Shown here in pieces: positions 11,747 through 64,000 of a stretch of DNA of 64,000 nucleotides. Below the pieces are notes generated by a model. It had not been told where the DNA came from. It worked only from the letters and a program-made list of their open reading frames with translations, and made no database searches. The position numbers and the translations under genes were made by a program. Position 1 is the first letter of the stretch; the number at the start of each line of letters is the position of its first letter. Source of the stretch: Terfezia claveryi. Its lineage: Eukaryota; Ascomycota; Pezizomycetes; Pezizales; Pezizaceae. The stretch lies in contig WHUX01000074.1 of the NCBI GenBank assembly GCA_015179025.1, positions 186,001 through 250,000 of the forward strand, written 5' to 3'.

Positions 11747-13747
11747 ATGCGTTTGTCCTTACTCACTGTCCTCATCCCGGTAGTGGTGGGATTCATTATT
11801 CCCACCCCGAAGATGGCGTACCAGTTTGTTCTTGATCAGATTGGAGAGAATACGGCTGGGGAGGTGAATCCAGTCACAAAAGCCTTCAAAGATGCTGAGA
11901 TCGGTAAATGGAAAAATAAAGAAGCCCAGACACCGTGGGAGGCTTTTATTACGGGCCAGTGGGCGCGGAGTAGTGTCGAGGATACTGATGACGGATGGTT
12001 TGGGGATATGAAGAAAAAGAAGGGCAATCGGGGTCATCGTGGGGGCCACCATCATGGTGACCATCATCATGGTGACCATCATCATGGTGACCATCATCAT
12101 GGTGACCATCATCATGGTGACCATCATCATGGTGACCATCACCACCATCACCACCACGATGGAGATCACGGGAAACATTCAAAACATGGACATCAGGGCG
12201 ATGTTGACGACGGCGACGGAGACCACCACCACCATCACCATGGTGGAGCGGGTGACCATCATCATCATCATGATGGAGAGGGGGACCATCATCATCATGA
12301 TGGAGAGGGTGACCATCATCATCATCATCATGATGGAGGGGGTGACCATCACCACCATGATGAAGATCATCATGGGCATCATGAATCGCCTCACCACCAC
12401 CAATCACTCCACGACATCCTCCGCCATCATGGCTTCCACAATGACCATGACAAATATCCCCATTCTCAACCGCACGGCGATCACGGTCACGACGGTCTTT
12501 CCGGTCACCACTCGTATCACTCTATCCCTATGCCGCATCGTGATGGCCATTACCATTCCAATTCCACCCTCTGGGACCTGGTCAACTCTTGTCCTCAAAC
12601 ATCTACCTTTGCCTCCCTGGCCAAAAATGATACAATGTTCTACAATCTACTCAAAGACTCACACCAAAATGTTACAGTTTTTGTACCCTCTAACCACGCT
12701 TTCAAGAGGTTGTTTAGGTTAGGATTAATACCAGAACATGACATCGACAAGGATTTGTTGAGTAAAGTACTCAATTATCATTCGGTGATCGGGACCCATG
12801 TGAGCGATGATTTGATTCATCACAATACAATCATCAGTAGGCTCCAAGAGGACCATTTGGGTAAGGGAATGCATCAAAGGTTGAGGCTTGGCTTGGATCA
12901 AGTGCATGGGCCTAGTGTCAATTTTTTCGCAGATATATTACTGTCCGATGTGGTTTGTCCCCCAAAATCCCCCCCAAATGTTGCCTAATTTTGCTAATAA
13001 TGCTTTAAGCTTGCGAAAAATGGAGTTATACACGGAATCTCTGCCGTCCTTCTCCCTCCGCCATCCATAGTCGATATATTGGAACTCCTTCCCACGGAAT
13101 TCTCCACCACCACTGGTGCGCTTTACCGCACAAGTCTTATTGACGATTTGCCCAGCCTTTTTGGCCATGGCCTTACTGTCTTTGCTCCCTCTAATAGGGA
13201 CTGGGAAAAACTGGGGTGGAGGGTTGGTGCTTTCCTTTTTTCTGATAAAGGAAAAGACTACTTGAAGGCGATCTTGAAATACCACATAGTCCCCAGTCAA
13301 TCGCTTTACTCTGACGCGCTGGATCGCCAGCACGATAAAGACTACAAGGATGTTGGTGAAGAGAATGAAATGGATGATTCAGCAGGTCTACGCCCAGGTT
13401 ATACTCACTTGCAACTCCCAACCCTGCTCAAGGATGCGGAGTTGTCTGTTGATATCACCCGATATGAGCGGTTCTTGAGTTTCAGAGCCAATGGGTACAG
13501 TAATATTATTATCTCGGATGGAGTTGCCAAGGAAGGGGTAGTGCAGGTACCAAATCATGTACTCATTCCGCCCTGTACGCATCATAGCAGTAGCAGGATG
13601 GAGGAGGAGGAGTTGCTGCAATCGCAAGAGAAAGTTTTGCAGGCGCAGGAGGAAGGCACGGATGTTGATGTGGAGGATTTGAAGAGGATCTTGCAGCCAT
13701 ATGTCGAGAGGGAAGCAGACGAGGGAAGGCGTGAGGAGGAGTTGTAA
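11747..13747 (+). CDS. Secreted His-rich protein with two fasciclin (FAS1) domains
   Basis: Exons 11747-12952 and 13010-13747 are joined across a 57-nt GT-AG intron with branch-like CTAAT. The product is 647 residues. Residues 1-16 form a signal peptide (MRLSLLTVLIPVVVGFI). Residues about 95-255 are dominated by GDHHH and GEGDHHHH repeats, six GDHHH units being consecutive. FAS1 domain 1 (about 273-420) has TFASLAKNDTMFYNLL and TVFVPSNHAFKRL and ends with NGVIHGISAVLLPP, which the intron removal restores. FAS1 domain 2 (about 421-590) has TVFAPSNRDWEKLG and ends VVQVPNHVLIPP. The tail is Glu-rich. FAS1 domains mediate adhesion at the cell surface or vacuole; the tandem pair resembles yeast YLR001C-type proteins. 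The His array is likely to bind Zn, Cu or Ni, which is inference. Confidence 0.87.
12056..12130 (+). repeat. 15-bp coding tandem repeat (GDHHH)
   Basis: Five identical copies of GGTGACCATCATCAT begin at 12056, 12071, 12086, 12101 and 12116. A sixth at 12131 has CAC for one CAT codon. Perfect identity implies recent expansion by slippage or unequal exchange. Confidence 0.95.
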
Positions 13748-25112: not shown

Positions 25113-26250
25113 TCTTCCTTCAGGCGTCCCTTCTCGGAATCCGACGTCGGTAATAACTGTCAGAGTTCTCAGCGCCAGCTACTTGAGCATGCGCTCAAGT
25201 AATTAAATTATGTATCTGCTGCGGAAGCGTCGATCGCGTTCGAATTCGTCTCGAGGAGGGACGGGTTTCAACTCCAAATTGGCGGTGAGGCTGAGGCTGC
25301 CTGCCCCGTAGAGATGCAGTACCTATGTCCCCACGAGCGCTACGATGAATGCTCGCAAGACACCTCCTCGGGCTTATTTGACTGCAACTGTGCAGCGCTG
25401 GCTATGTAGGTGCCAATTAAACGCGCGATTATCAGGATAGGTCAGAGTTGAGGGTGATGTTCACGCCCAAGGCTGCAGCGAAGAAGCACCGGTATATACG
25501 GAGTACGGCGCCAAATCACCGTGCCGTCCCCACGCTCAGCTATTCAGCCAAGTGATCCCCTCCTCGCTTGTACAACCACGGCAGCAGCAAGCATCAATCC
25601 AATTCTGATTGCCAATATGGTTGAAAAGGAGACCAGATCAGCTCCAGCCGAACCCAAACTAAGGTACCCGTAGTGACGATCAGCTTACTTTGGTTCGATT
25701 TTCACCATGGCCCCCCCACACAAACATCATCAGTAAGCAGCAATCCAAAATAATGCCAACATACCGTATGTACAGTACAAGCCCCTCTCCACAAACATAC
25801 GTAGTCTGGTTGGCACAATATCCCGGTCAGCTCAACTAGTACTAGTACCAACCAGACCTAACCTGAAGTTGGTACATATGTACGTGCCAAACGAGCCAGA
25901 TCAGAACAAGTATGATGACAGTCTACCAGGCACAGATCCCCTGAATTACATTACTCTGCAATTTCTCTCATTCTCCCCATTCCATTTCGTAAATCCCAAA
26001 TACAAGATAATCCTGAACCCCATTCATGACCTGTTTCCCATATACTAGCTTTCCCAATATTCCCAATTAAACCCCGACTTTCTAATTATAAATTGAAAGT
26101 AAAGCACAAGATGTCGAAAAGAGAGTCTCTACCAAGCATCAATCTTAAAATACCAAGAATACACAATTGCTATATAACCATGTGCCAATATCAACTGCAG
26201 CTTCGCACTGCAGCTGCCGGCTTATCGTTTGGTTCATAGTTTGGCCGCAT
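25113..26250. other. Intergenic: promoter of the large gene and 3' flank of the glyoxal oxidase
   Basis: GC-richer near 25.1-25.6 kb, as expected for a promoter and 5' UTR, with TACGGAGTAC at about 25498. A copy of the short TAGTCTGGTTGGCAC word pair lies at 25802-25860. No gene is supported. Confidence 0.5.
25802..25860. mobile_element. Imperfect foldback of the TAGTCTGG word family
   Basis: The left arm TAGTCTGGTTGGCAC (25802-25816) is mirrored on the opposite strand at 25845-25860 as TAGGTCTGGTTGGTAC, with one extra base and one substitution. Only 28 bp separate the arms, including ACTAGTACTAGT. The flanking nine bases do not match each other, so the target duplication has decayed or never existed. 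Confidence 0.5.
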
Positions 26251-28865: not shown

Positions 28866-31800
28866 GCTGGTGTAGGTCCTCGACCTTCAAATTGTTAGCA
28901 AAATGGATATATAAACGTGCTGGAAAAAAAATGACATGAGAAATCCGTCCACTGTGCTTGAAAGAAGCCACTATTATCCAAATGACGGCAGCTTCTGGAT
29001 AGACTCATGGCCAGAGGCCTCTGCATTCCCGTCGATCGTGATATCAGGTGGATGGCGTACCTCTAGCTGCTCTTGTGCCAACCAGGCTATCTAAGGTTGA
29101 GAACAAGGTAGTCTCGGGCTCAACGTGTGGAATCCTGATCTCGGTGGATATAACAATGCTTAAAATGGCTGGGAGAGAAGTAGTCCAGTTGGAAAAGATT
29201 TTCAGTCGAGCCTATAAGCTGTAGCTTATCTTGAAGCTATATCAAATGGACAAAATACTACCCCATTTGGTTAGCAGTCTGTGTACCTATCATCTAGCTT
29301 GGCACCTTCATCATCCCATAAAGGTTTGCATGCTTTTAGCTTTGGAGGATTCAGGAAATCCGCTGCCTCACTAAGCTAGAATTTTACCGTGTATACATAA
29401 AATACACAATCAAACAGCCCCCTTCAGCTGACTCACATATCATACAAGCCCCTTAACAGCATTGATGTCCATCCAGCTGAAGGTGATTTTGGCACCAGTG
29501 ACAGTGTCCCTCTGTCTTCAGTAAAGAGTTGAGTAAGTACTTACGTATATCAGCGTCCTCCCTATAATAAATATTCGCCTAGAAACGAGGGAACTTTTAA
29601 AATCTGGGTCCGGTATCGTTGCGTGATACTCGTGAACGAAAGGCTACGCTGCAGGGGCGTGGGATGTGACAGTGAGGTGCGGTGAGAGGAAGCTGATAGC
29701 TGGACAAGAGGCACTTTATTACATTCAAAATTGTGAAGGGTTTCTTTGTCAATTTCGGTGATTGGCTGGGATTCGATGTAGTACACATCCTTTTCTGTCG
29801 GGAACCACCACACATAGCCAATCCTCCTGCCTACTCCGTACAGTATACCCCTATGCAAGGCATACGTTAACGAGGTTGTGGGGCATAGGCGAGGCCGAAG
29901 TGAGAGTACTGGTGTTTCTGCACGGATAATTGGAAGGTTTTTTTTAGCGTTCCTTCTGCTCAACTGAACTGACGACCGATTGAGTACTCTAGCAACTTCG
30001 GTCGCCCGAAATCGACTGCTAAATTGAGGGTAGCTTCATCGCAGGCTGTGATTGCTAACCTTATGGGGGCAAAATATTCACGAGTGACGTTTTTGTAGAA
30101 CCGCAAGTCGCGAGCCCTTGCTGTGAGCGGTAGCTACCTGTTTACTTCCCGCATCCTTCATTATCCGTGAGACATAAATCTAAATGTGACATGGAGCTGA
30201 GCACCTACTTTCGAGAATGGAGCCCTCGTCATCACTTGCTCTTTCCTAGGGTGTTTGTTCGTTGGATCTCGGTGCGTCAGCAACCCTGCGATCTTTCGGA
30301 AGTGGATGCTCAGCCTAACTGAGCTAAGGTAGATTGGGACTTTCTTAGACCTACCGTATCCCCTTCCAGACGGAGCAGAGTACCTAATATGAGAATAGCC
30401 ACGTGCTGCTTAATTCAAAATTCTCTGCATGTTCCTCAAGACTTACTGGCATTAGTTTTCCCTGTTCTATTATTAGCAACGCAGTAGCCTCAAGGTTGGC
30501 CCCCAGAATTAAGATTCAACACACATATGTAGGGTATGGTGTCTTCTTTCCATTGGGCCCTTAATTGATCAACAGCTGCAGGAACACTGGAATCTGCTAC
30601 GACATCCTAGAATACCCAGGTCCAGGTTATGCGTGGAACCACAGTTCGAAGAGAAAACTCATTTGATTGTCAGCATTTATCAACCTTCAAATTCGAATGA
30701 TGCAATTCAGATATTGCTCAAAATTTATTGTAATCATAATTAGTTATATTGTTGATAGTTTTGCTACACTGACTGATGATTCCACCATACCGCAGTCATC
30801 CCTTTATCGAATGTATTATAGCACTGCAAAGAATCAATAGACTAGATTCAAGTGCAATATTGAATATCGCAAACTTCCCAGCTGGATAGAGCTTCAAATC
30901 ACAAGCTGTCAATATTTCGCATTTGGTATTTCTACATGAGCCATGTGCAGCAATCTGCTGCACTGCAGAATGTTCGATCACATCATCCAACTTCCAGAAC
31001 TCCGTATTTCCGGTGTCAATATAAACCCAAAATTGCAAATGCCTACCTTCCAGGCCGGAGCAAGGACGAATTGAAGCTAATCAAGGAGAAGACGTGCGGA
31101 TGCGTTGAACAATTGTATCTGTACAATAGTCTTAGTGAAACATCGAAAACACAGCCAAAAGAGCCAAAAGTGTCCATCGTACATAGATACCTGCAAAATT
31201 GTACTTATCCTCTGAATTCTGTGACGATTTTTGGTATACAGCTTGAGCTTGATATGAAGTCCCTAATTCCAAGTTTAGAGATCAGCAGCTCCTCAGCTGT
31301 GCTAGAGAATTTCTGAAAGTCAATGAAAAGTGAAAAGTTGCCAAAATACGCTATTCCCCATATATCCGTAAATCAGCGTCCATTTTGCTTTTTTTTTTTT
31401 TTTTTTTTTTTTGGAAATGGCACTCTGCAGGCCACTGTGTGTCAGGACCTCGCAGCTACCTACGTCAAAAAATTAGAGAAGAGTATCTGGATTTCTTTCT
31501 TAGATTCAATTAATTTTCGTGTTATTCTCCCGCAAACTCGATTCTAACATTTTTTTTACGACGGCCACTTTTGGCCATTCTGCCTGTGTTTTTGATGTTT
31601 CACCAAGAGGGATTGTACTGCTGGCCGCTCGTAGAGATAACCTTTAAGCTTCTCATTCTGCTCAACCCAATTTACTCAGCCTTGAAGGCTAACTCTGACT
31701 GCTGAATTTGAAGTTAAACAGGTTATCTCGAGTATTGATGATTACTGTATTTGCACCGTGAATCTCGATCTCAAATGCTACGAGGGTCTGATCGAGACTA

Positions 31801-32260
31801 TCTCAAATGGGACTATCCCAAATCCAAAAGTCAGCTTGTCATGATCATAATATCTTAAGTAGCCTAATCATATCCAGACTCATGCAGTGCTGCACACGCA
31901 AATCTCGGTTCTATCTCGGGTATTAAGTACATCCAGAAAAGTCCTATATATATGTACGGATATAGTATTAAACCCCTGCGCAGAAATGTAGTAGTATTCA
32001 TACTGGATAAACGGATACTTAGCAGACTAACTTAGCAGTTGCTCGAACAATTATGTTTCGGTAAATGTTGACTACACCTATTACAGCTAGATTACCGGGA
32101 AAACCGAGACCACCATTTAGTTGAACTCGGAATCCGGGTAACGAGAGGCTATGCACAATGCTAATAAGCAGCCTTAAAATTTTAAGTTCAAACCTGTTCT
32201 GTGTCATTGACGCCATGTCTGATTCTATAAGCTTCACTTACAAACCCTAAATATCTAAAC
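28866..32260. other. Gene-poor spacer upstream of the glyoxal oxidase
   Basis: About 3.4 kb. It contains one diverged TAGTCTGG-family word at 29075-29089 (minus), a 133-codon minus frame at 29562-29963 without recognised domain, and a poly-T run at about 31389-31411. A short minus frame near 29434-29520 (DTVTGAKITFSWMDINAVKG) looks protein-like but has no supported gene model. Confidence 0.45.
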
Positions 32261-40228: not shown

Positions 40229-42177
40229 GATAGGGGTAATGCTGGTGGCGAGATTCCTGCGCATTCTGCACTACTTACTTGCGTATACCTGGAGTCAGTC
40301 TGTTAACCTTTTGTCTCAGACCAGCATTAAAAGCGCCGATAGGTTGTCAGAAAACGCAAGAATTCTGCTGTAGGTGCTTGCACCTTTTTAGGTCAGCAAA
40401 TCCATGAGTATGCAAAATACTAATTAAACCTCCCCGTGCCCTCAACGCCGCATGCAAGTACGGAGTATTTAGAAAAAGAAATGCCCCTCACAACCAGTAG
40501 AACACCGTTTTTCAGTTACTTATACACATAGCTCGCGGGTCGAAGCTCCTTCGATTGTTCGTTTTCCCATAGTTCCAGGTCTAATCACCTTCCAGACCTC
40601 CCATTCAGTCAGATGAGTACTTCCACGATTTCTAGTGAGACATTTAGCCAGATGTTTCATTTTCACGACTACTCTCGATCCGATATTTGTATTTAGTTCC
40701 AGGTAATTCCTGAGCCGCTCGGCATGCCCCTTACTAGGACCGACCGCATCCGAGTACTGAGTGTTTTCTAAGCAAAAAAGGGCTCCCTCAACGCTCTCCT
40801 CCGCTGGGCGTAACTGCAGGGACGCATCAGAGAAGAAGCAATGACAGCGAGGATAAGGAGAGGACGGTGAATATAGCGAGTAATGCGAATGAGGAGGATG
40901 GTTTATAGATTGAATGATACCTGGGGATGATTATGGACCTTCCACGACGCAGTGCCATCTCCGTCATATACACCTACAAACGCCTCAAACGCCCGCAACC
41001 AGACTACAAACGCCCCTACTCTTATGAATCTACCTTCACCACACCCCGCTAGCCTCGGATTACGGTGCATAGCCACCGCTATCGCCATCCCGAGGCTATA
41101 ATCGTAGCACGGGGAATTCTAGTGCCAGATGGGGTGGTAGAAGGGGTTGATGGCGCCGCGTGTTGTACTACAGCTGAGGGAAGGGAGTTGAGGGTGCCAT
41201 GGAGTAGGAGGCTGGAACGTCCTGGGTTTTGCCGCGGGGAGGGGTTGAAGATAACCTGCGGCTCCCTTTTTACCATAAGATCCGTCACTGCCTTAAATAA
41301 TTAGTAGGGTACAGCCTTAATAAAAAGAAAGTGGCTGCTTTTCCTTTCTCTTTTTTTTTGCCCTGGATTAAACAAACGAACTACATCAACTATTGAGTGT
41401 GAAAAAGCATCAGTACAAAGAACCAAACCACCTCTTATTAGTCTGGTTGGCACACCTCTTATATAACTTCCATCACCCGAATTGAGGGCACCAAGGGTTG
41501 TGCCACGGAAAGGGGCTAGGGGATGCCAATATTCTCTCTCCCACCCCAACCCAATAGGCCAGATATGCCACAAATGACCTCATGACAACTAGGAGGCTTC
41601 AAATCAACACCTATATCCCGCAAAATCAGTGCCTTTGCAGAATCAGCGCAACTCCCTCGACAAAAGCGGCTACTGAAGCCCAGAGCTCGGGGGGAAGCAC
41701 TGGAAAAGCTCTCTGGGTGCCGCAGGGGAGGGAGTTGAGAGGTCTAGGGTTCATAGAATCCTCGTAGGTCCTTTTGAGCCCCCTACCATCTAATTCTCCC
41801 TGGTTCCGCTTTTGATGCTTTTCATATAGTCTACCCCGCGAGTACTAGTTCAAGTATCACGTCAGAATGAGTATATGAAAGGTGGGAGATTACCAGATGG
41901 TTGAATGGTCGAGGGTTGGTGTGCAGTGTACGCACTGTCTCGAAACGTAAGAAAAACTTCTGTCAGATTGTTATTTAGGTCTTAAGACCAGGAAGCGCAT
42001 AACATACTCCACATTGGTTTATGTTTGTCCCCATTGGGAGAGAAAAACTCATCCACAAAGTGAGACTCCTATCTGATATGACCATGGAGTTGGCTTCGTG
42101 TAGGATAGACACCGTAACGATGGCCATATTGATGATATTGTAATTCCTTAAACGACGATCTCATAGATTTGGCGTGT
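40229..42177. other. Spacer rich in short repeats
   Basis: Contains G-rich words related to GGGAGGGAGTTGAGGG near 41171 and 41721 and, reversed, near 40440 and 40790. A short insert with 9-bp flanking repeats lies at 41430-41462. Minus frames at 40903-41288 could be repeat-derived. No gene is supported. Confidence 0.45.
41430..41462 (+). mobile_element. 15-bp insert flanked by perfect 9-bp direct repeat
   Basis: The word TAGTCTGGTTGGCAC (41439-41453) is bracketed by ACCTCTTAT at 41430-41438 and again at 41454-41462. The word is the same as the arm of the 51-bp palindrome at 53236. Confidence 0.7.
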
Positions 42178-46711: not shown

Positions 46712-49700
46712 CTTGTGCTGCACCCTTCGAAAAGGGGACCTTGGGAAGGTTCTCTGTTGAATCAAGAATGGAGGTAGATTGAAACTACAACTCGCCAAGA
46801 GAATTAAGGTACCACCAGGAGATCAAGAAATGTATCGGCAGGAGAAAGGAAGAGAAGCTGGGGGGAGCCTGGGGGGTGGGTGTTGGTATTATATTCCAAG
46901 CCTTTTTGGTGTGCACAGCAGCCTCACTCCAGAGTATCCCAGCCAGCTTTCTGCGCATGCATCTGCCACACGTTTTCTATGTGCATTCACATGCTGCGTG
47001 AGATCCCTCATCAACGACTCTTCATATAGGCAGAGTTTGGGTGACAGAGTATATCCCGAATGCACCCAACTACACCTGAGATAACTCCAAAGACATGGAT
47101 TGGTGTACATCATCCCTTTCCATGTCGCGTGGTGATGAAGGATGGTACCTAGTATATCTGAGAATAGTCTGGTTGCACATCTGAGAACGCCAAAATTCCA
47201 ACCACAAAGAGAAACGGTCAACAACCGTAGGTACCTAACTCCTCTCTAGGTAGTAGGAAGGTACCCAGTACCGTCCTTAGGTACCTCGCTCGCACTTTTT
47301 TCTCGAAAATTCTCCCCTGTTGTAGGTAAATGATGCCTCCACATGGGTGTCGTTGTAATATTTCGCGCATATGCGCATGCCGCAATGCATGGTCAAGTTA
47401 CATGTGCATGTAATAATTGTGACCCATGCTGTGTGGACCAATTGGCGGGAATTGACTGATGTTTGAATCTTAGGTAGCAATTGGTTGGTGTAACGATCGG
47501 CACTCTGATAGCTAGCCTGGTTATATGTAAATAGCTAGGTTAGTTTCTTAAGCAGCATCAAGAACAATCCAACAGGTTTGGGTGCCGTGATACTATTTCC
47601 CAAGTCCCAGAATGCCAGGCTGAGGTACTATAGCCAGGGCACAATTCGTAAATGCGTATCACTTTCCATAACCTCGCATCTCTCCCTACAATATCTTAGG
47701 CCTAGTAGACGAGAATTAATATGTAGTACTGATTAGCTTAGATAAGTTTGCGAGGATTGTATACTGTATGCGGTATAGCGAAAAATTATTGTCATGCATG
47801 CATGCAGCTTGCAGTTTCCAATTATCAACTGCTTTGGTGGACTGGCCAATGCAATCCTGGTCTGCAGGCTACATAATTTATCGTCGTACCGAGTACATGG
47901 TTATTGTCCTCCTATAATCCTGGAACTTATCCCGCTGCTGGCCGCTTGTGACGGTAGATAGTCCGTGTAACATCTCGAGTGGAAACACATTTAAGAACCC
48001 ACTTCATTAGCATAGACACATCCACCGTTGTTTCCAGCGTGCGAACAGAAGGCAGTTCTATATCTACCAGAGGTTGAGTATATGCAATCTTGCTCCATGG
48101 CCGGCCATAATATATTGTCACCTACAGAGTACACTTTAAGCATAGGTTAACAAACATGATGCAAGGTAGTTTGCAGCAAGAGAAACTACGGCAACCAGAC
48201 TAGGCGTTACTGCGAGGGTCAGGCAGACGCCTGGTGGCGCAATGCATGCATTCCGATTTCCCTATTCTTCACTACTGCAACTAAGTTAGGTATCATAAAA
48301 TGGTCTCAATATCTCAGACATTTAAGTGTTGTCAGGCATCTCCCTGTTGAGCAAATTTGCTAGAAAAAAGAATATGGGATGCCAAAGAGTGTCGTCAGAG
48401 GGGTGGGTGGCTTGATTCTAGTTTTGTCCAGTTGTTCACCAATCAGGGCTTCAGCCTATGATACATTGATATTTTCTTGTTCCTTCCACGCCATGGTGAG
48501 CCTAGAAGTATGTTATGGGTACTGGTACTTAATAAACCAAGTTCAGTGTGCATAAACTGATTCCAATCTTTTTGGAGAGCTGCGAAAGATATGCCGTAGA
48601 TCGAATCAATCAGTAAGCATGATTCTTATGGCTCGCCCCTTCAACTTGGGTATTTTTCGACTGCCACTTTAGGTACGGAGGCCACTTAGTCTTTATCTGG
48701 TAATCCTGTCTCCTGTGGGAATTTCTCCCTCGCAATTGCAGTATCTAAGGGGAGTGATAGCGGGAGACGGCAGGGACCTTACCTCTAGATGCGAAGACAG
48801 CAATAGGCTAAAGTAACGATGTTCTTACACGAGATCTGCCAAGGTCACTACCTACTTTGGTACCTGTTGTCCTGTATGAGGGCATGCTTAATATATCCCT
48901 ATATAAATAGAACCTTCCAACACCAAGTAGGTAGGAAAGCCAACTCCAATACTCACTCATGTGCCTTCCGTGGGCGTTCTTGATCCATCCCTAGCCTGGT
49001 TTCACAACCCCTCGGTAGTTCATGTCTAGTAACCACCCTCTTCCGATGTTGGAATACCATCTAGCTAGCAGCACTATCTTCCCCTTCGGTACATGCTCGC
49101 TTCTTTTGTTCCTGCCTTTCTATCTGATGTCCATCATACGCTTCTATCTCTACATTCTTTTAAGTGTTTTTTCCATCACCTCCCAAAGTCTTTACTTCTT
49201 CTCATGCCACGTCCACCTCTGACTGCAGTGGTGGCGTTTCCTCCCTTGTATTATATTTTCCCAGATGTTCCATGGAGGCCATAAAATGCATCTTTGAGCC
49301 TAGAGGGCTTTTATTCGATATACCACTGATGATAGTATCCGAACTACCTGTGAAGTCAGGTTCAATCTTAGTTCCATTTTCTTTGGATAACTCGGACTCA
49401 CAAAATCGCCTGGTAGAAATATTAAGGGGATTGACTTACGCCATAATATTCTGCTAGTACTCTCTTGCTCCATCCTCATTGCTGCTTCCGCTTCCTTTCG
49501 TCTGTTCGTTCCATCTTCCGTGGTTTGCTAGGCCTTATGATTTTCGCGTCAATATGTTCGATCTGTTAACACATGCGGAGAAAAGCATGTACAAGCTGTA
49601 CTTATAGTGAACCTCATACAGTAGTCTACGGGATAGGATAACTATATATAGCCGCTATATTCTATGAAGACAGCATAATCGGTGTCTAATCCCTGTATTT

Positions 49701-49938
49701 CTGTCTGCCTGGCGTTTTCCTCTCATGGGCCTTTTTTCCACCTTGTATGGTTGCCCTTACTTACCCTCTCTAGGTAGGAACGATTTGCAGTCAATTTTGC
49801 ATCCCAACACCTACTTTCGCAGCTGGCTAGATTTTGCCCTGAAAAGCATAGGTCTACCATTGGTGGCCCGTGCATTACAGATAAGTATGGTAGGATGATT
49901 TTAGGATGAACCCCTGCAAAATATCCCTGTATGTTTAG
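46712..49938. other. Gene-poor spacer upstream of the OPT gene
   Basis: Promoter of the transporter at the left. Further right are repeated GGTACCTA/CTAGGTAG words (47220-47290), TAGTCTGG-family words at 47165, 47513, 48191 (minus) and 48992, and no frame that looks coding. Confidence 0.45.
47156..47187 (+). mobile_element. 14-bp insert flanked by perfect 9-bp direct repeat
   Basis: TAGTCTGGTTGCAC (47165-47178), one base shorter than the family word, is bracketed by ATCTGAGAA at 47156-47164 and 47179-47187. Confidence 0.7.
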
Positions 49939-49941
49939 ATA

Positions 49942-50072
49942 CTGGGAAAACTGGTGAATAAGACTGTCTGTATCTTTCTCTTTCCTTTTTGTGGTAGGGG
50001 AGTTACTAGTTGTGGGCAGATTAGCGTTCTTGATTGGATTTTGGACTTAGTCTTATTCACCAGTTTTCCCGG
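49942..50072. mobile_element. 131-bp TA-flanked MITE
   Basis: Terminal inverted repeats of 24 bp (49942-49965 and 50049-50072) match at 23 of 24 positions; each begins CYGGGAAAACTGGTGAATAA read inward. The element is flanked by TA on both sides (49940-49941 and 50073-50074). The 83-bp interior has no coding potential. TA duplication and size fit a non-autonomous Tc1/mariner-type element. Confidence 0.8.
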
Positions 50073-51118
50073 TATGTACCTAGGTAGGCAGGCATACCTA
50101 GGTAGTAGGATATTTTTTTTTGGAAGTTCCAAGTAGGGTACCTATTCGCTGGGCTCATGAATCATCCAAATCCTAGCGGGACCCATAGGGAACCATTTCT
50201 TTCTCTCTGCCGATCGTTGCAGATTAACCTGTCCATTTTACTAGCTGATCTATTTAAAAAAATAAAATAAAAAAAAAGGGGGTGAAACCTTCCGCTGTAC
50301 CATGGAGTACATAGGTACCGGTAGGTACCTAGTTGTTTTGGTTTAGGATGTTGTACAGTACATGTAAGTAGGCCCCAAAAAAAAAAAATTTTTTTTTTTC
50401 TGTTTTATTTTGAAAACTAACTCCTCCTTTAGGCAAGGATCTAGATACAGTCGGCGTTGAGTTGGTCATGTCGGTTATTAATATAGCAGACCGAGCCAAT
50501 TATGTAGTAGGTAGGGGTAGATGGGAGAGAAATCATATTGCAAAGGTTTGGTATTGGCATTCCTAACCTGCGGCGCCCTGGTATAAGCAGCATCGGGGGA
50601 GGGGGAGGGAGTTGAGGGTAATAAACTAGCTTTTCCCTGTCTCACAGAATTTACCTTGAATCCACTAGTGTGGTTTGTATTGGCGATATTATCGACCCCG
50701 TAAATAAGATTTCAATTGTTAGATTTCAATTTGCATTTGCCATTATCAATCTAATACTACCGCTTCAGCATTGTGATCAAGGAAATAGGTTTTAATAAAA
50801 CATGTGCTTTGCAGGCGCAGAAGGAGAAAAGGGTTGTATGTTTGAAATAACCAGACTAGGTTTGAGAAGGAGGATAAGGTACATGTACAAGGGTTAATTA
50901 CATGTGTGAAACATAAAAAGTGGACGACCCACACTTCTATCAGCAACTATTTTGAAGTCAAATCAAAGTCCATTTGCAATACACAGACTAGAGAATCCTC
51001 GAGGTATCATTCAGATCACTGTATTATATTTGCAATCCCACCTGCATAAACTCTCTCGAATATTTGATCAATTCTAGTGGATTTTCCTGCCCAGAGGTCC
51101 ATATGGCCCCAAAATCCT
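50073..51118. other. Spacer downstream of the BTB gene
   Basis: Contains CTAGGTAGG/GGTACCTAG words (50076-50110, 50310-50335), an A-run followed by a T-run at 50377-50399, a GGGAGGGAGTTGAGGG word near 50607, and a diverged TAGTCTGG word at 50848-50858 (minus). No gene is seen. Confidence 0.45.
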
Positions 51119-52234: not shown

Positions 52235-55200
52235 CTTGATATCCTAAATGGGAGATAGCTTGGTGGGAAGCTTGGTTGGTAGGTTGCGTGGAGGTCGCTG
52301 GGAGTGATATGATGGGAGCAGATTGGCCTTTGTGTAGGATTAATTATAGTCTGGTTAGGTGAACTTTGGGGAAAGGACGAGGCATGTAGGGAAAAGCTGC
52401 AATGCTGCTGCATTCAGTGAAGCCTGATTAGCACACGTTCGCCTGAGCTTTAGGCACGTGTACTTAGAAATCCGGCCTCAGAAACAGTTGATCTGGCATG
52501 TTCCACAAGTCAACCTTGTGCAGAACTCACAATAACTGGGTGCCTGTGGCGCTGCTGAGAAACATTCTGAATACCAACCGTCCTTCTCAGGCCATTCTCC
52601 AATTGCTCCTGCTTCTTCGCCATCAACTCTGCCGATATTCTAAAGATGCTGGCTCAACCAAGGCCCAAAACATCAATGAAGACTGCCTGCAAGCCCTAGA
52701 GAGGGCGTTTGATAATCCCAGAGAAGAGAGCACGAATGTTTCGAGGGATTAAGTTGCAGTCCTACACTTAAGCTGTACATGTAATCCATTTGAGAATTGT
52801 TTGAGGCTATTTTGTAGTTGAACTACTAGATTTTTAAATGTTCTCTGTATATTTAAGATTGATGGTATAGTTGAATATCCTCGTATATTCCAGACGTGCG
52901 AATAGGCTTTTGCCCACGGGCTGTAAGTAAGTACTTAATCACAAGAAGCGGCTAGGGACGAGAGAGTTGTGGAAGTATACCCAAGTCATGAACCGAAATT
53001 CAGAATATATTTTATTAGCACTTTGAGGGTGAAAGTTATCGAGGAATAGGATCATGCTGAAAACAGGCTCAGGGCATTGTCTCGAGTTCCAACACGAGGC
53101 TGTCGGCTAATGAGCCTTCTTCCTATGGAGTCTCTGGCCCCGCACTCACCTAATAACAGCGGAAAAGGATGACTCCTGTATCGTCGGGCTTTGGGCAATT
53201 AATCGGATTCGGCAGGGGCTGTGGCCGCAAGCGAGTAGTCTGGTTGGCACAAGCCCCTCTACGAGGGGCTTGTGCCAACCAGACTAGCAAGCGAGGTGGA
53301 TTCAGCGAGGGCTGTGTTTTGAGTGCCAAAGAGTCACGAGAGCAGTGGCTTTGGTAGGTTTGGTAAGCAGAGCTCGTTTCGGTTCAGCTGGGGGAGCTCG
53401 GGCGGGCGCGGCGGCGTTGAGAAGAGCATGCGCGGTGGCGTTGAGGAGATCGCGCAGAGGGACAGCCTAATAAGATGACGCAATTGGTCAACGGTGGCTT
53501 AGTGCTCTTGGCCGGGCATTGTAGATTACCCATGGAGCCCCATCCGGCTGTTATATTAGGGAGTTGTCACAACCGCCAGCAGGTCAGGATTCTGCGGGGC
53601 CGGGGAGTGGTGACTCTGCCTCTGCGACCGCATCCAGGACCGATTCCTTCCTGTTGTCTTTGGTGGTTTTGTGTGGATGTGGATTGGTGGGGTTTGATGG
53701 GGTTCTTTTGTCAAAATTTTCCTCGGTAATGGTCGAATAGGTTCTTGATGAGCTTTCATAGAATATATTCATTGAGTTCATTGCGAGAGACCTATGGAGT
53801 TCTATGGATGATAGCCTTATTCGTCCACAGACTCCTTATGTCAGTATATTCTTTGTCCAGTGTATCAGTAATATGTTATGCATCTTCCCTCCAAACTCCA
53901 TTATCCTGCGTAAGTGGTTGTGATGGTCGGGCCACGGGGTGGATTATGGATACGTATACTTCGCGAGTTACTTATATCAAGAGGTTTCTTATAATAAGAT
54001 ATGTGCCTAGAAAACTAGGAAATGTCCTGAAAACAACCCGTGATGGTTTGTTTATTGCTGTGTCCTTCAACTCGTTCCTTGTAGACTCTAAATGTCCTGC
54101 TTTTCCCAATATAAAAAGTGCCTCTAGATTCTCGCCTTTCTGTGAATAATGAGATGGGGAATGTAGCATAACATGAGCACGGATTTTCATCACGCCTTTT
54201 TCTATCCATCCCTGTCGAGTTTTAGCTTCCCTTGATGACATGATAACTTGCTATATACTTGTTAATTAATTTTGAATTGGACCCATTATTTGGAAACATC
54301 GGTACCTATTAGTATGTAAGTATGGCGGGTTCCGTTTTGTATTTAAAATTTTATAACTATATTCCTTAGTTCAGGGTAATTACTTATTGCAGTACATAAC
54401 AGCTATTGCGTTGCAACATAGCCTGGCTACCTAGTAATGGTAGATTGGTTGCCTATTTGGTAGTTAGAGCTCAGGTAGGCGCGCGGGGGGGGGGGGGTGG
54501 TTATATTGAAAACTCTCCCGGGTGGTTGAGAGGAGGGGGTTGAGTGTGCACGAGTTGTGCCTCGGCGGAGCATGCAAGGGGTTGTGCTGCGGATGGGGAA
54601 AGTCGAGGGGAGCGTCGAGGGAAGAGGATTTTGTTGTTTCCCATGACTTTTTTCCTTCCCTATGCGATTTCCCACACATACATCCTATCCGAATATTCCT
54701 CGGTTTGCAACCCTGACCTTCACGAATACAAACAATGTGAACAGATCGATGAAACTTCGTCAGAATCGGAATCGGAATTTAGAACGGACGAGAGCTCAGA
54801 AGCAGAATGTATCGAAGAGCCAAAATCGGAATCAATGGAGGATGGAGCATAAGAGTCGCAACCAGCCTACTTAGTATCACCAGTTTCATGCGTTCAATTC
54901 AAGGTATCAGCTTTGCCGGTATCCCACGTCCACAGCCACTTCCCCAGTACAGTCACATCCAATCCACATTTTTGCTCTTATAGACGCAATTAAACCAATA
55001 CGATAGATACAATATTACCGTACATATAATAGTTCCACTTTCTCTTGAAGTTGAGATTCTTGTTCACAAGGCTATCGGATTTACCCTGAACTCTCGAGTG
55101 AACTTGGCGAAGTACTTGGTGTGTAATACTGGCAGTTTCAGTGCAAAGGAAGATGAAGGGTAGACTACTTTCAATGTAATATAATTGAGACTAAAGAGGG

Positions 55201-55740: not shown

Positions 55741-57972
55741 TTACTCGAGCATTCTCGTTAAAAAGTCCCTAAAGCTCTTATCTTCCCTAGTGACCTCCCT
55801 AATTCTATCAATCAAATCCCTATTATATTTCCTCGCATACGCAATCTTCACACGGCGAATATGCTCGCGATCCCAATGGACCCTAACGCATCTACTGATG
55901 AACAAGTCATCCTTGGGGTTCTCAGATGCTGCGATACTGATGATTGTATCTTCAAGGAGTTTTGCATCGCGGAGGGGTTTGTCGATAATCCCAGAGAGGA
56001 GATGGGTCAAGGATTCTCCCTGGAGAAAGTATTAGTCATTAGGAATGATGAAAGTAAATTTTAGGATTAGAGAGCCATATACCACTAGATTTGGGCTGTG
56101 TTTGATCACCACTCTGCTTAGGTCCTTTTTATGCATCTGCCTATACCACCTAATCACCTCTCTCAAATGCACCTGACTTCTACATAGTAGAATCTGCATC
56201 AACACCGTCTCCCCAGTCCCCGGTCTCCCATCCAAAACTTCGTACAACGTCTTCACATCTTCATTAACCTTATCCATCTTCACACTCTCGGGGTCCGGTA
56301 CCGCATGCCCCCACACTGATCCCAAATATCCCTGATGCTCAGGCTCTTCATCCCTTATTCCACTCTCAGTGTCCAAAGTCATCAAGATCACCCCCCTAAA
56401 CTTGTGGGCTCCCAGCTCATTTTTCACTGCTCGCTCTAGTGAGTTCCCATACTTATCATCCTTAAAACCTTTTTTGATCTTTCTTATTTCCTGCACGGTT
56501 TTACCAACAAGTGCTTCGATGAGCAACTCATTCCGAGAAACTGCTTTCTGGTACCAGCTGTTCGCAAACCAACCTTCGGATTCATATGGACCAAGGGCTG
56601 TAGCCCACGCAGTTTTTCCAAAAGCCCCAGTTCCGCATTGCATCTTGATGTGTTTGGCGATATTCACTTGATGGAATAAACGTTTATATTCCGCGCGCAG
56701 AGCAACAAGTTGGGCGGGGCTAAGGCGGGGAAGAATCTTGATTATGGGTCCTGGTTCGATGCGAGAGATGTTATGATTAAGACAGGCAAGAAGCTCCTTT
56801 GCGTGTGGGGTAGGGTCATAGTCGGCGTCCCTGTCATCTTTGGAGGTCGGTTTCACTATTGGAGGAGGTGCAACAAGGGGTGCCCCAAGAGAGAATCCTT
56901 GGGTACCGAGGTCATGGGAAGAAGAAGAGGGCGAGTACGAGATTGGAGGAGCAGAAGGAGATGGAAGTGGGGAGATATTTTGGTAGGTTCCTTGGTAGGG
57001 TTGGAGAGCTGGAGACACGCCACCAAGAGACAAGCCAGCCATACCAGGAATAGAAAGTGAAGAAGTGTGACCATGAGAGGGTTGGTGGGTTGGTGGACCA
57101 CCGCTACCATATTGCGTAGGGGGTGCATACCCTGGCGAAGGAGCATAGTGGGGCCCTACATTCGGTGATGGTGGTGGGAGGGGATTACCGTGATGAGGGC
57201 CCAAGCCGGGGGATACAGCCATGTAGGAGCCGGGTCCACAGATGCCACCAATTGCTGCATGGGAGGATGACGATCCACCCGGAGCAGCAGATTCTGACCA
57301 GTATTCGGGATTTTTATGTCCGGCATAGTAATCAGGGTTGGAGTCCGCCGATGGAGGGGGCGCTCCGTACCCCTGCTGGGGAGGGGGGATTGGGGCTGGA
57401 GGCATCTGATATTGGTATCCTTGAGACGTAGTATGCGTTGGGGAAACAATAGATCCGTACGGAGTTGGTGCTCCATACGTAGGTGGTGCTCCATACGTAG
57501 CTGGTGCTCCATACGTAGCTGGTGGTGGAGCTCCATATGGTGCCTGTGCTGGTGGAATGGGTGCTTCGGGAGAGGAATATTGACCTGCAGTTCGTTAGGA
57601 CCTTGTCATAGCTCATGATATTCAAGACCTTGTTGAAATCACCATAAGCGTTGAGGGGGGATGTCACGGGGCTGAAGCTGCCCTGAATACCGCCGTATCC
57701 CGAGACGGGTTGGTAAGTTGAACCGTATCCCCCTCCCCGAAGCTCCGGTCAGTGGTCTCTGGCGCTGGCGAAGGATCGCGGGAACGAGATACAGAATTCC
57801 CCCGTGACCTCGATCCACGCCCCCCAGCAGAAGGGTCGACGCTCAGTGTATCGGTTTTTTTGTGTCCTCTCCCCTCCTTCCGGACCGTGGAAGAACCTCG
57901 TACTCGGCTGCAGTCCCTCGAAGGCTCACGAGTTCGGGATTTGTCCCGGTGTCTGCGCTCGCCATCCGACAT
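55741..57972 (-). CDS. Annexin with Pro/Gly/Tyr-rich N-terminal extension
   Basis: Modelled as exons 57793-57972, 57643-57742, 56083-57584 and 55741-56019, giving 686 residues plus stop. The head (1-60) is Arg/Ser/Asp-rich (MSDGERRHRDKSRTREPSRD). Residues 60-340 are Gly/Tyr/Pro-rich with repeats of the type PATYGAP. The annexin core (about 345-686) has four repeats: DPTPHAKELLACLNHNISRI; SWYQKAVSRNELLIEALVGK; a third containing LYEVLDGRPGTGETVLMQIL; and a fourth with GESLTHLLSGIIDKPLRDAK and IRRVKIAYARKYNRDLIDRI. Annexins bind acidic phospholipids with Ca2+; fungal ones are linked to secretion and membrane organisation. The first intron (57743-57792) has a CTGAC branch but a weak GAG acceptor, so that junction is the least certain. 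The other two introns are canonical. Confidence 0.9.
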
Positions 57973-63571: not shown

Positions 63572-64000
63572 TCAGCCCTTACGCTCTCGGAGAATTGATT
63601 TGATCTCAGACAATTGCACCGTTAGGAGATCCACGTTCAGCTTGAGCTTTTCATCGAAAGAGGCCTTGAGCTCCTGGTTGCTGGCATCAAGTTTTTTGTT
63701 GAGCTCCTGGTTGCTGGCATCAAGTTTTTTGTTGATCTCCTGGTTGCTGGCATCAAGTTTTCTGTTGATCTCCTGATTGATATGGTAATAGGAGAACAAC
63801 TATAAAGTATCAATTAGTAATTGTAAAGTGTATGTACTAACCTGGGACATTACTTACGCCTCCAAAACCATAGGCCAACATAAAGCTCAGCTGCATCCGA
63901 GCGTTCGACCGAATATCCGCCTTATCAGTCAACCAGTGTTCATAAGCCTGGGCATTCTATGCCTACATAATATGTTAAAAGATGTCACCTGTAACTCATC
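63572..64000 (-). CDS. Coiled-coil protein with 11-residue repeats, C-terminal part (partial)
   Basis: Exons 63572-63799, 63858-63947 and 63989-64000 continue beyond the right edge; intron 63800-63857 is canonical, while 63948-63988 (41 nt) has an alternative acceptor at 63957. The visible 110 residues read AYEHWLTDKADIRSNARMQL, then SFMLAYGFGG, then repeats of NQEINKKLDAS (about four, period 11) and a final amphipathic helix LTVQLSEIKSILRERKG. An 11-residue period favours a hendecad coiled coil, here strongly polar. The family is not recognised; the upstream part outside the window is needed. Confidence 0.7.
63666..63764 (-). repeat. 33-bp coding tandem repeat, 3 copies plus partial
   Basis: Units start at 63666, 63699 and 63732, with a fourth truncated unit at 63765. 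The first two are identical and the third differs at two bases. They encode NQE-(I/L)-N-(K/R)-KLDAS. Confidence 0.95.

Follow-up and report, generated by a model that had tools for sequence, protein, structure and literature searches.

MITEs form families of similar, mobile copies, and the footprints usually left by transposon excision are a few nucleotides long. AcademH DNA transposons were reportedly described by Kojima in 2020; terminal inverted repeats (TIRs) are a feature of Academ, and the mechanism of AcademH has been little studied. In the parts of the published accounts drawn on here, AcademH is a low-copy, helicase-bearing fungal transposon (PMC10799480) with a target-site duplication (TSD) of 9 or 10 bp, as against 3 or 4 bp in AcademX (PMC10045372), and solo-TIRs are known for Galileo (64 cases, a 630-bp TIR end having been compared; PMC3573991) and for Styx (36 bp, 25 cases; PMC10853768).

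The locus studied here lies in a stretch of 64,000 nucleotides, hereafter the window, from the desert truffle Terfezia claveryi (genome 72.56 Mb, 794 contigs). One protein encoded in the window shares 89% identity with a protein of Terfezia boudieri.

The window foldback and its parent element

The preliminary description of this locus as a perfect 51-bp foldback with 24-bp arms, a 3-bp spacer and 9-bp flanking repeats was confirmed down to the exact coordinates. The foldback occupies window positions 53236–53286, between two copies of GCAAGCGAG, and is made up of the following features, the parent being a transposon on contig C135.

53227–53235, plus strand: left target-site duplication GCAAGCGAG
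53236–53259, plus strand: left end stub (24 nt), belonging to the terminal inverted repeat of the parent and the same as nt 1–24 of the C135 element
53260–53262, no strand: spacer TAC (GTA on the opposite strand; compare the parent TIR, ...CTCGTAGAGGG)
53263–53286, minus strand: right end stub; from the right side, 32 nt match the parent TIR
53287–53295, plus strand: right target-site duplication GCAAGCGAG

The arms are complementary at 24 of 24 bp. Compared with the parent TIR, 32 nt match from the right side (TAG...CTCGTAGAGGG) and 24 nt from the left, and the two stubs, as counted from the sequences, overlap by 5 nt (CCCTC/GAGGG). This indicates that the window foldback consists of two end stubs that meet in a short stretch common to both, an anatomy that is well supported in that it follows from the sequence; the pathway that joined the stubs we infer. 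The earlier wording, "no interior at all, only two inverted ends", was accurate for these two TIR stubs, and a transposon origin, also proposed at that stage, is borne out by the match of the arm to the start of the TIR of the C135 element. As single-stranded DNA, the foldback has a predicted folding energy of −30.6 kcal/mol (z −14). No further match to the arm (up to 3 mismatches) was found in the window beyond the two foldback arms, and none occurred in 100 window shuffles.

The parent lies at C135:449886–459000 (9,115 bp), with arms at 449886 (+) and 459000 (−). Its TIRs are identical over 120 bp, both begin with the arm, and a perfect 9-bp TSD, CGTTCTGGT, flanks the element on each side. 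Its content was read outside positions 454861–456689 and 457841–458836. The plus strand carries P0005, a protein of 695 aa for which no Pfam family was matched, and a RecQ-like helicase that is in pieces, its frame broken. The pieces match RecQ family TIGR00614 (E 4.7e-13 and 4.8e-16) below its curated cut-off because the helicase is fragmented, and the helicase domains PF00270 and PF00271 are above cut-off inside the parent. The broken frame suggests that the C135 copy may not be the active one. The minus strand carries a DUF6589 protein, a putative Academ transposase; no paper naming DUF6589 was found in the literature searched. Taken together, the helicase, the 9-bp TSD and the TIRs point to AcademH, and the parent would be AcademH-like rather than a MULE.

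A single full-length match to P0005 was found in the genome, together with nine that are diverged or partial. With up to 3 mismatches allowed, the first 37 bp of the TIR match at 17 places; two of these matches are exact, and several of the remainder are stubs. Among the listed matches, three pairs of exact arms in plus and minus orientation lay within 10 kb, and the C135 pair is the element; the arm pairs on C199 and C268, tried as long elements, were rejected as separate single ends. At L031 on contig C38, the one end read continues past the arm into parent-like sequence. Arm copies are roughly a hundred times as numerous as the parent ends that can be recognised, a count that diverged TIRs escape.

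End stubs across the genome

The genome-wide arm search proposed in the preliminary description gave 1,684 matches to the 24-bp arm with up to 3 mismatches (821 + 863), and the reversed control gave 0. Most arm copies examined are single pieces of about 10–33 nt beginning TAGTCT, many of which lie between exact 9-bp repeats. Of 74 exact-arm hits examined from 100 listed, 28 repeat their left flank exactly over 9 bp within 100 bp (25 one-ended hits among them), and a further 17 do so with one mismatch; the one-mismatch repeat of L067, 96 nt off, is probably due to chance. The other 29 had no 9-bp repeat with up to one mismatch: two are parent ends, one is L031, and 26 are unexplained, perhaps as a result of age. 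The 74 include four hits (L022, L032, L076 and L090) that represent one shared old insertion. A repeat of about 300 bp, in several cases near contig ends, is present at L090, L022, L032 and L076 (contigs C179, C31, C42, C126 and others).

The length of the flanking repeat was compared with expectation from shuffled flanks at 142 unique arm-core hits, drawn from the first 92 loci with each foldback arm counted separately. The flank was repeated downstream over exactly 9 bp in 39 cases against 0.25 expected, and the neighbouring lengths gave 13 against 0.5 (8 bp), 11 against 0.2 (10 bp) and 7 against 0.35 (11 bp). An exact 9-bp flank repeat within 70 bp was also found for 95 of 447 TAGTCT occurrences versus 53 of 4,438 for 30 permuted hexamers, counting redundant loci as well as both strands. 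The repeat over 9 bp is a feature of the family and not chance, in agreement with its first interpretation as a target-site duplication. Extra filler-like bases were seen between the left repeat and TAGTCTGG at L020:1501 and L038:1501.

Further one-ended stubs between 9-bp repeats are present in the window itself.

40986–41015, minus strand: one-ended stub TAGTCTGGTTGC, 12 nt at 40995–41006, between 9-bp repeats CAAACGCCC
41430–41462, plus strand: one-ended stub TAGTCTGGTTGGCAC, 15 nt at 41439–41453, between 9-bp repeats ACCTCTTAT
47156–47187, plus strand: one-ended stub TAGTCTGGTTGCAC, 14 nt at 47165–47178, between 9-bp repeats ATCTGAGAA
38061–38103, plus strand: one-ended stub with a variant end (TAGTCTTGGTTGCACTACCCCTCTC; length 25 nt), flanked by 9-bp repeats AGGTTGGAG
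31769–31809, minus strand: one-ended stub TAGTCTCGATCAGACCCTCGTAG (23 nt, from a second end family), flanked by 9-bp repeats TCTCAAATG

The second end family, TAGTCTCGATCAGACCC, has 266 + 238 genome matches (up to 1 mismatch; control 2) and in L085 makes a foldback of 39 bp that has a 9-bp repeat; no parent element of this family was found. More TAGTCTGGTT starts occur in the window at 25802, 38140, 48193, 50849 and 52347, where a 9-bp repeat was not found, and these are perhaps older stubs. The window also contains an inverted repeat at 49936–50078 (30-nt arms, 93% complementary, 83 nt apart), a possible ordinary MITE, and short tandem repeats at 12050–12370, 57466–57520 and 63666–63760, the first of which encodes a histidine-rich stretch of ORF 11747–12988.

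Unique inserts that begin TAGTCT and have exact 9-bp repeats numbered 81 (67 one-ended and 14 two-ended) in tables that omit low-complexity flanks, L075 thereby missing from the hairpin-base analysis. Insert lengths show a sharp onset at 10 nt. Only four inserts are shorter, at 1, 2, 4 and 6 nt; three consist of the end sequence overlapping itself or in tandem, the single 6-nt insert being a tandem of two stubs; lengths of 5, 7, 8 and 9 nt are absent, and there are five inserts each of 10 and 11 nt. One-ended inserts include 20 at 10–15 nt and 27 at 28–33 nt, and two-ended inserts range over 23–54 nt. In the hairpin-base analysis, the four one-ended rows longer than 36 nt are L052, a foldback with a shifted repeat, and L003, L018 and L019, nested or odd inserts. 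Of the 37 one-ended inserts that reach 26 nt or more, 15 terminate exactly at a hairpin base (4–6-bp stem, 3–5-nt loop), whereas 25 of the 592 alternative cut points within these inserts would do so; the loops at these ends are GTA, GAAA, GGTA, CTCA, ACA and TCGA. Stability of the stub hairpins beyond chance was not found when the folding model was compared with shuffles (z −1.3 to −0.2; z 0.03 for 60 nt of TIR). The hairpin-base analysis set held one-ended and two-ended inserts at 65:14, a count that over-represents foldbacks because L001–L008 and L039–L052 were chosen as foldback-like. Across 530 TAGTCTGG-like occurrences (redundant loci included, in stretches mostly up to 1.5 kb), all two-ended inserts with 9-bp repeats were at most 54 bp long except one nested case of 78 bp, which suggests a lack of ordinary internal-deletion derivatives.

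In the genome, 27 foldbacks have an exact 17-nt core in each arm and up to 30 nt between the arms. They comprise 24 distinct sequences, with lengths of 39–62, and thus look like scars formed singly, not copies of a self-moving micro-element. There are three identical pairs: C3/C408, which lies in duplicated flanks, C424/C434, and L049/L050. The last two loci share a 49-bp foldback, their flanks differ, and the 9-bp repeat is perfect at L050 only; this pair represents either a recurrent junction or a moving copy.

Empty sites, a further check suggested at the outset, were sought by comparing the joined flanks of 29 sites, then 22 more, with the genome. Insert-free paralogous copies were clearly present within the same genome at five of the 51 sites (inserts of 13–54 bp), with one doubtful case. 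Base-by-base alignment gave five empty and two filled copies of the surrounding repeat for a 13-nt stub, an empty copy 98% identical for a 27-nt stub, and one empty and two filled copies for a 31-nt stub. At these sites, the filled copy equals the empty copy plus the insert and one extra 9-mer, with two further base differences in two of the five empty copies at the 13-nt site. Judged from coordinates only, the 54-bp foldback L042 has 44 uninterrupted matches across the junction and the 49-bp foldback L047 has one (96%). The doubtful case is L061 (31-nt stub), with an 89% match spanning 10 bases more than the query. The existence of insert-free copies indicates that stubs and foldbacks are true insertions. 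No insert-free match was seen at 45 of the 51 sites, including the window foldback, L005 and L007; a missed empty site says little, because 40 of 64 and 40 of 215 candidates were scored. All ten full-length matches of the L090 repeat, judged by span, carry one shared stub, and L090 is therefore uninformative.

Origin of the stubs

The identity of these inserts as end stubs is well supported, and for the route of their formation we put forward one proposal. With about even confidence, we regard the foldback as a scar, two end stubs of an AcademH-like transposon of about 9.1 kb, left by failed integration. The scar reading is based on stubs that correspond to the start of the parent TIR, the 9-bp duplication, the missing interior and the insert-free copies of other scar sites, together with a large arm population in which single stubs outnumber foldbacks. 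The transposase would cut the target with a 9-bp stagger and join one or both transposon 3' ends to it. Transposition would then fail, and the transposon body would be lost except for an end shielded by protein (almost never below 10 nt) or, alternatively, through cleavage at the base of a small CCTC-loop-GAGG hairpin in the unwound TIR (31–33 nt), the single strand being supplied by the element's RecQ-like helicase. The cell would fill the 9-nt overhangs and join the remaining pieces. One attached end would leave a lone stub that directly abuts the second TSD, and two attached, trimmed ends would give a foldback, with two stubs fused tip to tip within the 9-bp TSD of the transposon. Under failed integration, one side would be flush with an intact TSD because that target end never joined the transposon, pieces would hardly ever be shorter than 10 nt because bound protein protects the end, and many pieces would end at the hairpin base because the unwound strand is cleaved there. 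Counterpoints to the scar reading are the 26 of 74 arms without repeats, the foldback shared by L049 and L050, hairpin stability at chance level and the extra bases in L020 and L038.

Failed excision is the chief alternative. If full elements at every site had left again, with one end cut precisely and the other trimmed or part-copied by gap repair, a stub would remain between TSDs made at the original insertion; it would begin like the parent TIR, and the products would be identical. The products do not separate failed integration from failed excision. Exact or near-exact 9–11-bp repeats lying 9–14 bp apart were also found at 9.7 per distance versus 5.5 at 70–120, a modest and unspecific excess (six redundant loci omitted) of the sort that clean footprints would leave, though ordinary tandem repeats could explain it too. 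However, TIR-derived pieces of 5–9 nt are absent apart from the 6-nt tandem of stubs, the two-ended inserts stop at 54 bp apart from the nested case, with no internal-deletion derivatives, and recognisable parents are few for 1,684 arm hits. Excision is therefore considered the less likely route and, in itself, an unlikely if credible one. The preliminary description had also raised a palindromic micro-element. On this reading, a unit of about 50 bp would itself transpose, and the one-ended copies would be its decay products. Possession of both ends and a perfect TSD, the 27 foldbacks with exact 17-nt cores, the identical foldbacks of L049 and L050 in different flanks and the insert-free sites for the 54-bp and 49-bp foldbacks are all consistent with such an element. 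It nevertheless appears improbable, given that foldbacks are a small minority with 24 distinct sequences among 27, that the identical pair C3/C408 sits in duplicated flanks, and that a sharp 9-bp TSD is kept at the one-ended copies that make up most of those examined, where decay would not have spared it.

The 9-bp duplication had originally been linked to Mutator-like elements, and MULE loci with 9-bp direct repeats do occur in this genome; L093, L094 and L096, for example, have inverted ends and 9-bp direct repeats (CGGACTGACTC..., ATACGTGCTC...). A 9-bp TSD is common to MULE and AcademH and is thus not diagnostic. None of the 21 PF10551 (MULE) matches lies on the parent contig C135, the parent instead holds the RecQ-like helicase and DUF6589, and candidate MULE ends with 9-bp repeats, readable at five of the 21 loci, are unlike the arm. 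The 21 MULE-domain loci were also scanned for the arm as a possible MULE parent, and this candidate was rejected: they gave only a lone TAGTCTGG (L104) and internal TAGTCTGGTTGGAGAG in the long-TIR loci L098 and L109, taken as coincidence or an old stub. A MULE-derived mini-element is accordingly the most improbable of the readings considered. Scarcely more probable is the insertion of short RNA or oligonucleotide copies by reverse transcription, in the manner of tiny 5'-truncated SINEs. This would fit one constant and one variable end together with target duplications, but the duplication is fixed at 9, the TIR that the ends match belongs to a DNA transposon whose TSD is equally long, and no A-rich tail was seen in the listed inserts.

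Failed integration, as preferred here, can be extended to the transposon itself, although more tentatively. AcademH-like integration might proceed one end at a time, through a helicase-unwound strand with a terminal hairpin cleavage point, with most attempts failing and more than 1,000 half-site products of 10–33 nt kept as a fossil record of the intermediate. The identical TIRs make the parent look recent, and the genome holds a great number of tiny products with one or two ends, many of them within exact TSDs. Cut points, the length of the protected end and the roles of the TIR hairpin and helicase would be readable from stub sequences and open to testing. Insertions of 10–50 bp with 9-bp flanking repeats usually go unannotated and can be a transposon's main genomic trace.

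Comparison with described systems

A search for the exact 17-mer found no paper, and no published end stubs of comparable kind were found within the one literature library searched. AcademH, the closest described system as far as the consulted parts of its literature go, shares with the parent the 9-bp TSD, the helicase, the low copy number in fungi and the TIRs; no report of end-stub scars was found for AcademH.

In common with MITEs and internal-deletion derivatives, the window foldback and the other foldbacks have two TIR ends and a TSD and are non-coding. They differ in that lengths and junctions vary from site to site and the interior is gone, with 24 distinct sequences among 27 foldbacks and lengths of 39–62. 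Excision footprints likewise consist of transposon-end pieces between TSD copies, whereas the pieces found here start sharply at 10 nt and cluster at 28–33 nt, with no TIR-derived pieces of 5–9 nt save the stub tandem.

The solo-TIRs of Galileo and Styx, as presented in the portions of those reports considered, are similarly copies of a DNA transposon cut back to one terminal repeat. They are, however, whole terminal repeats defined by a missing partner, in contrast to pieces of 10–33 nt held within exact 9-bp TSDs, and it is a further difference that the stubs in Terfezia claveryi far outnumber the ends of their parent.
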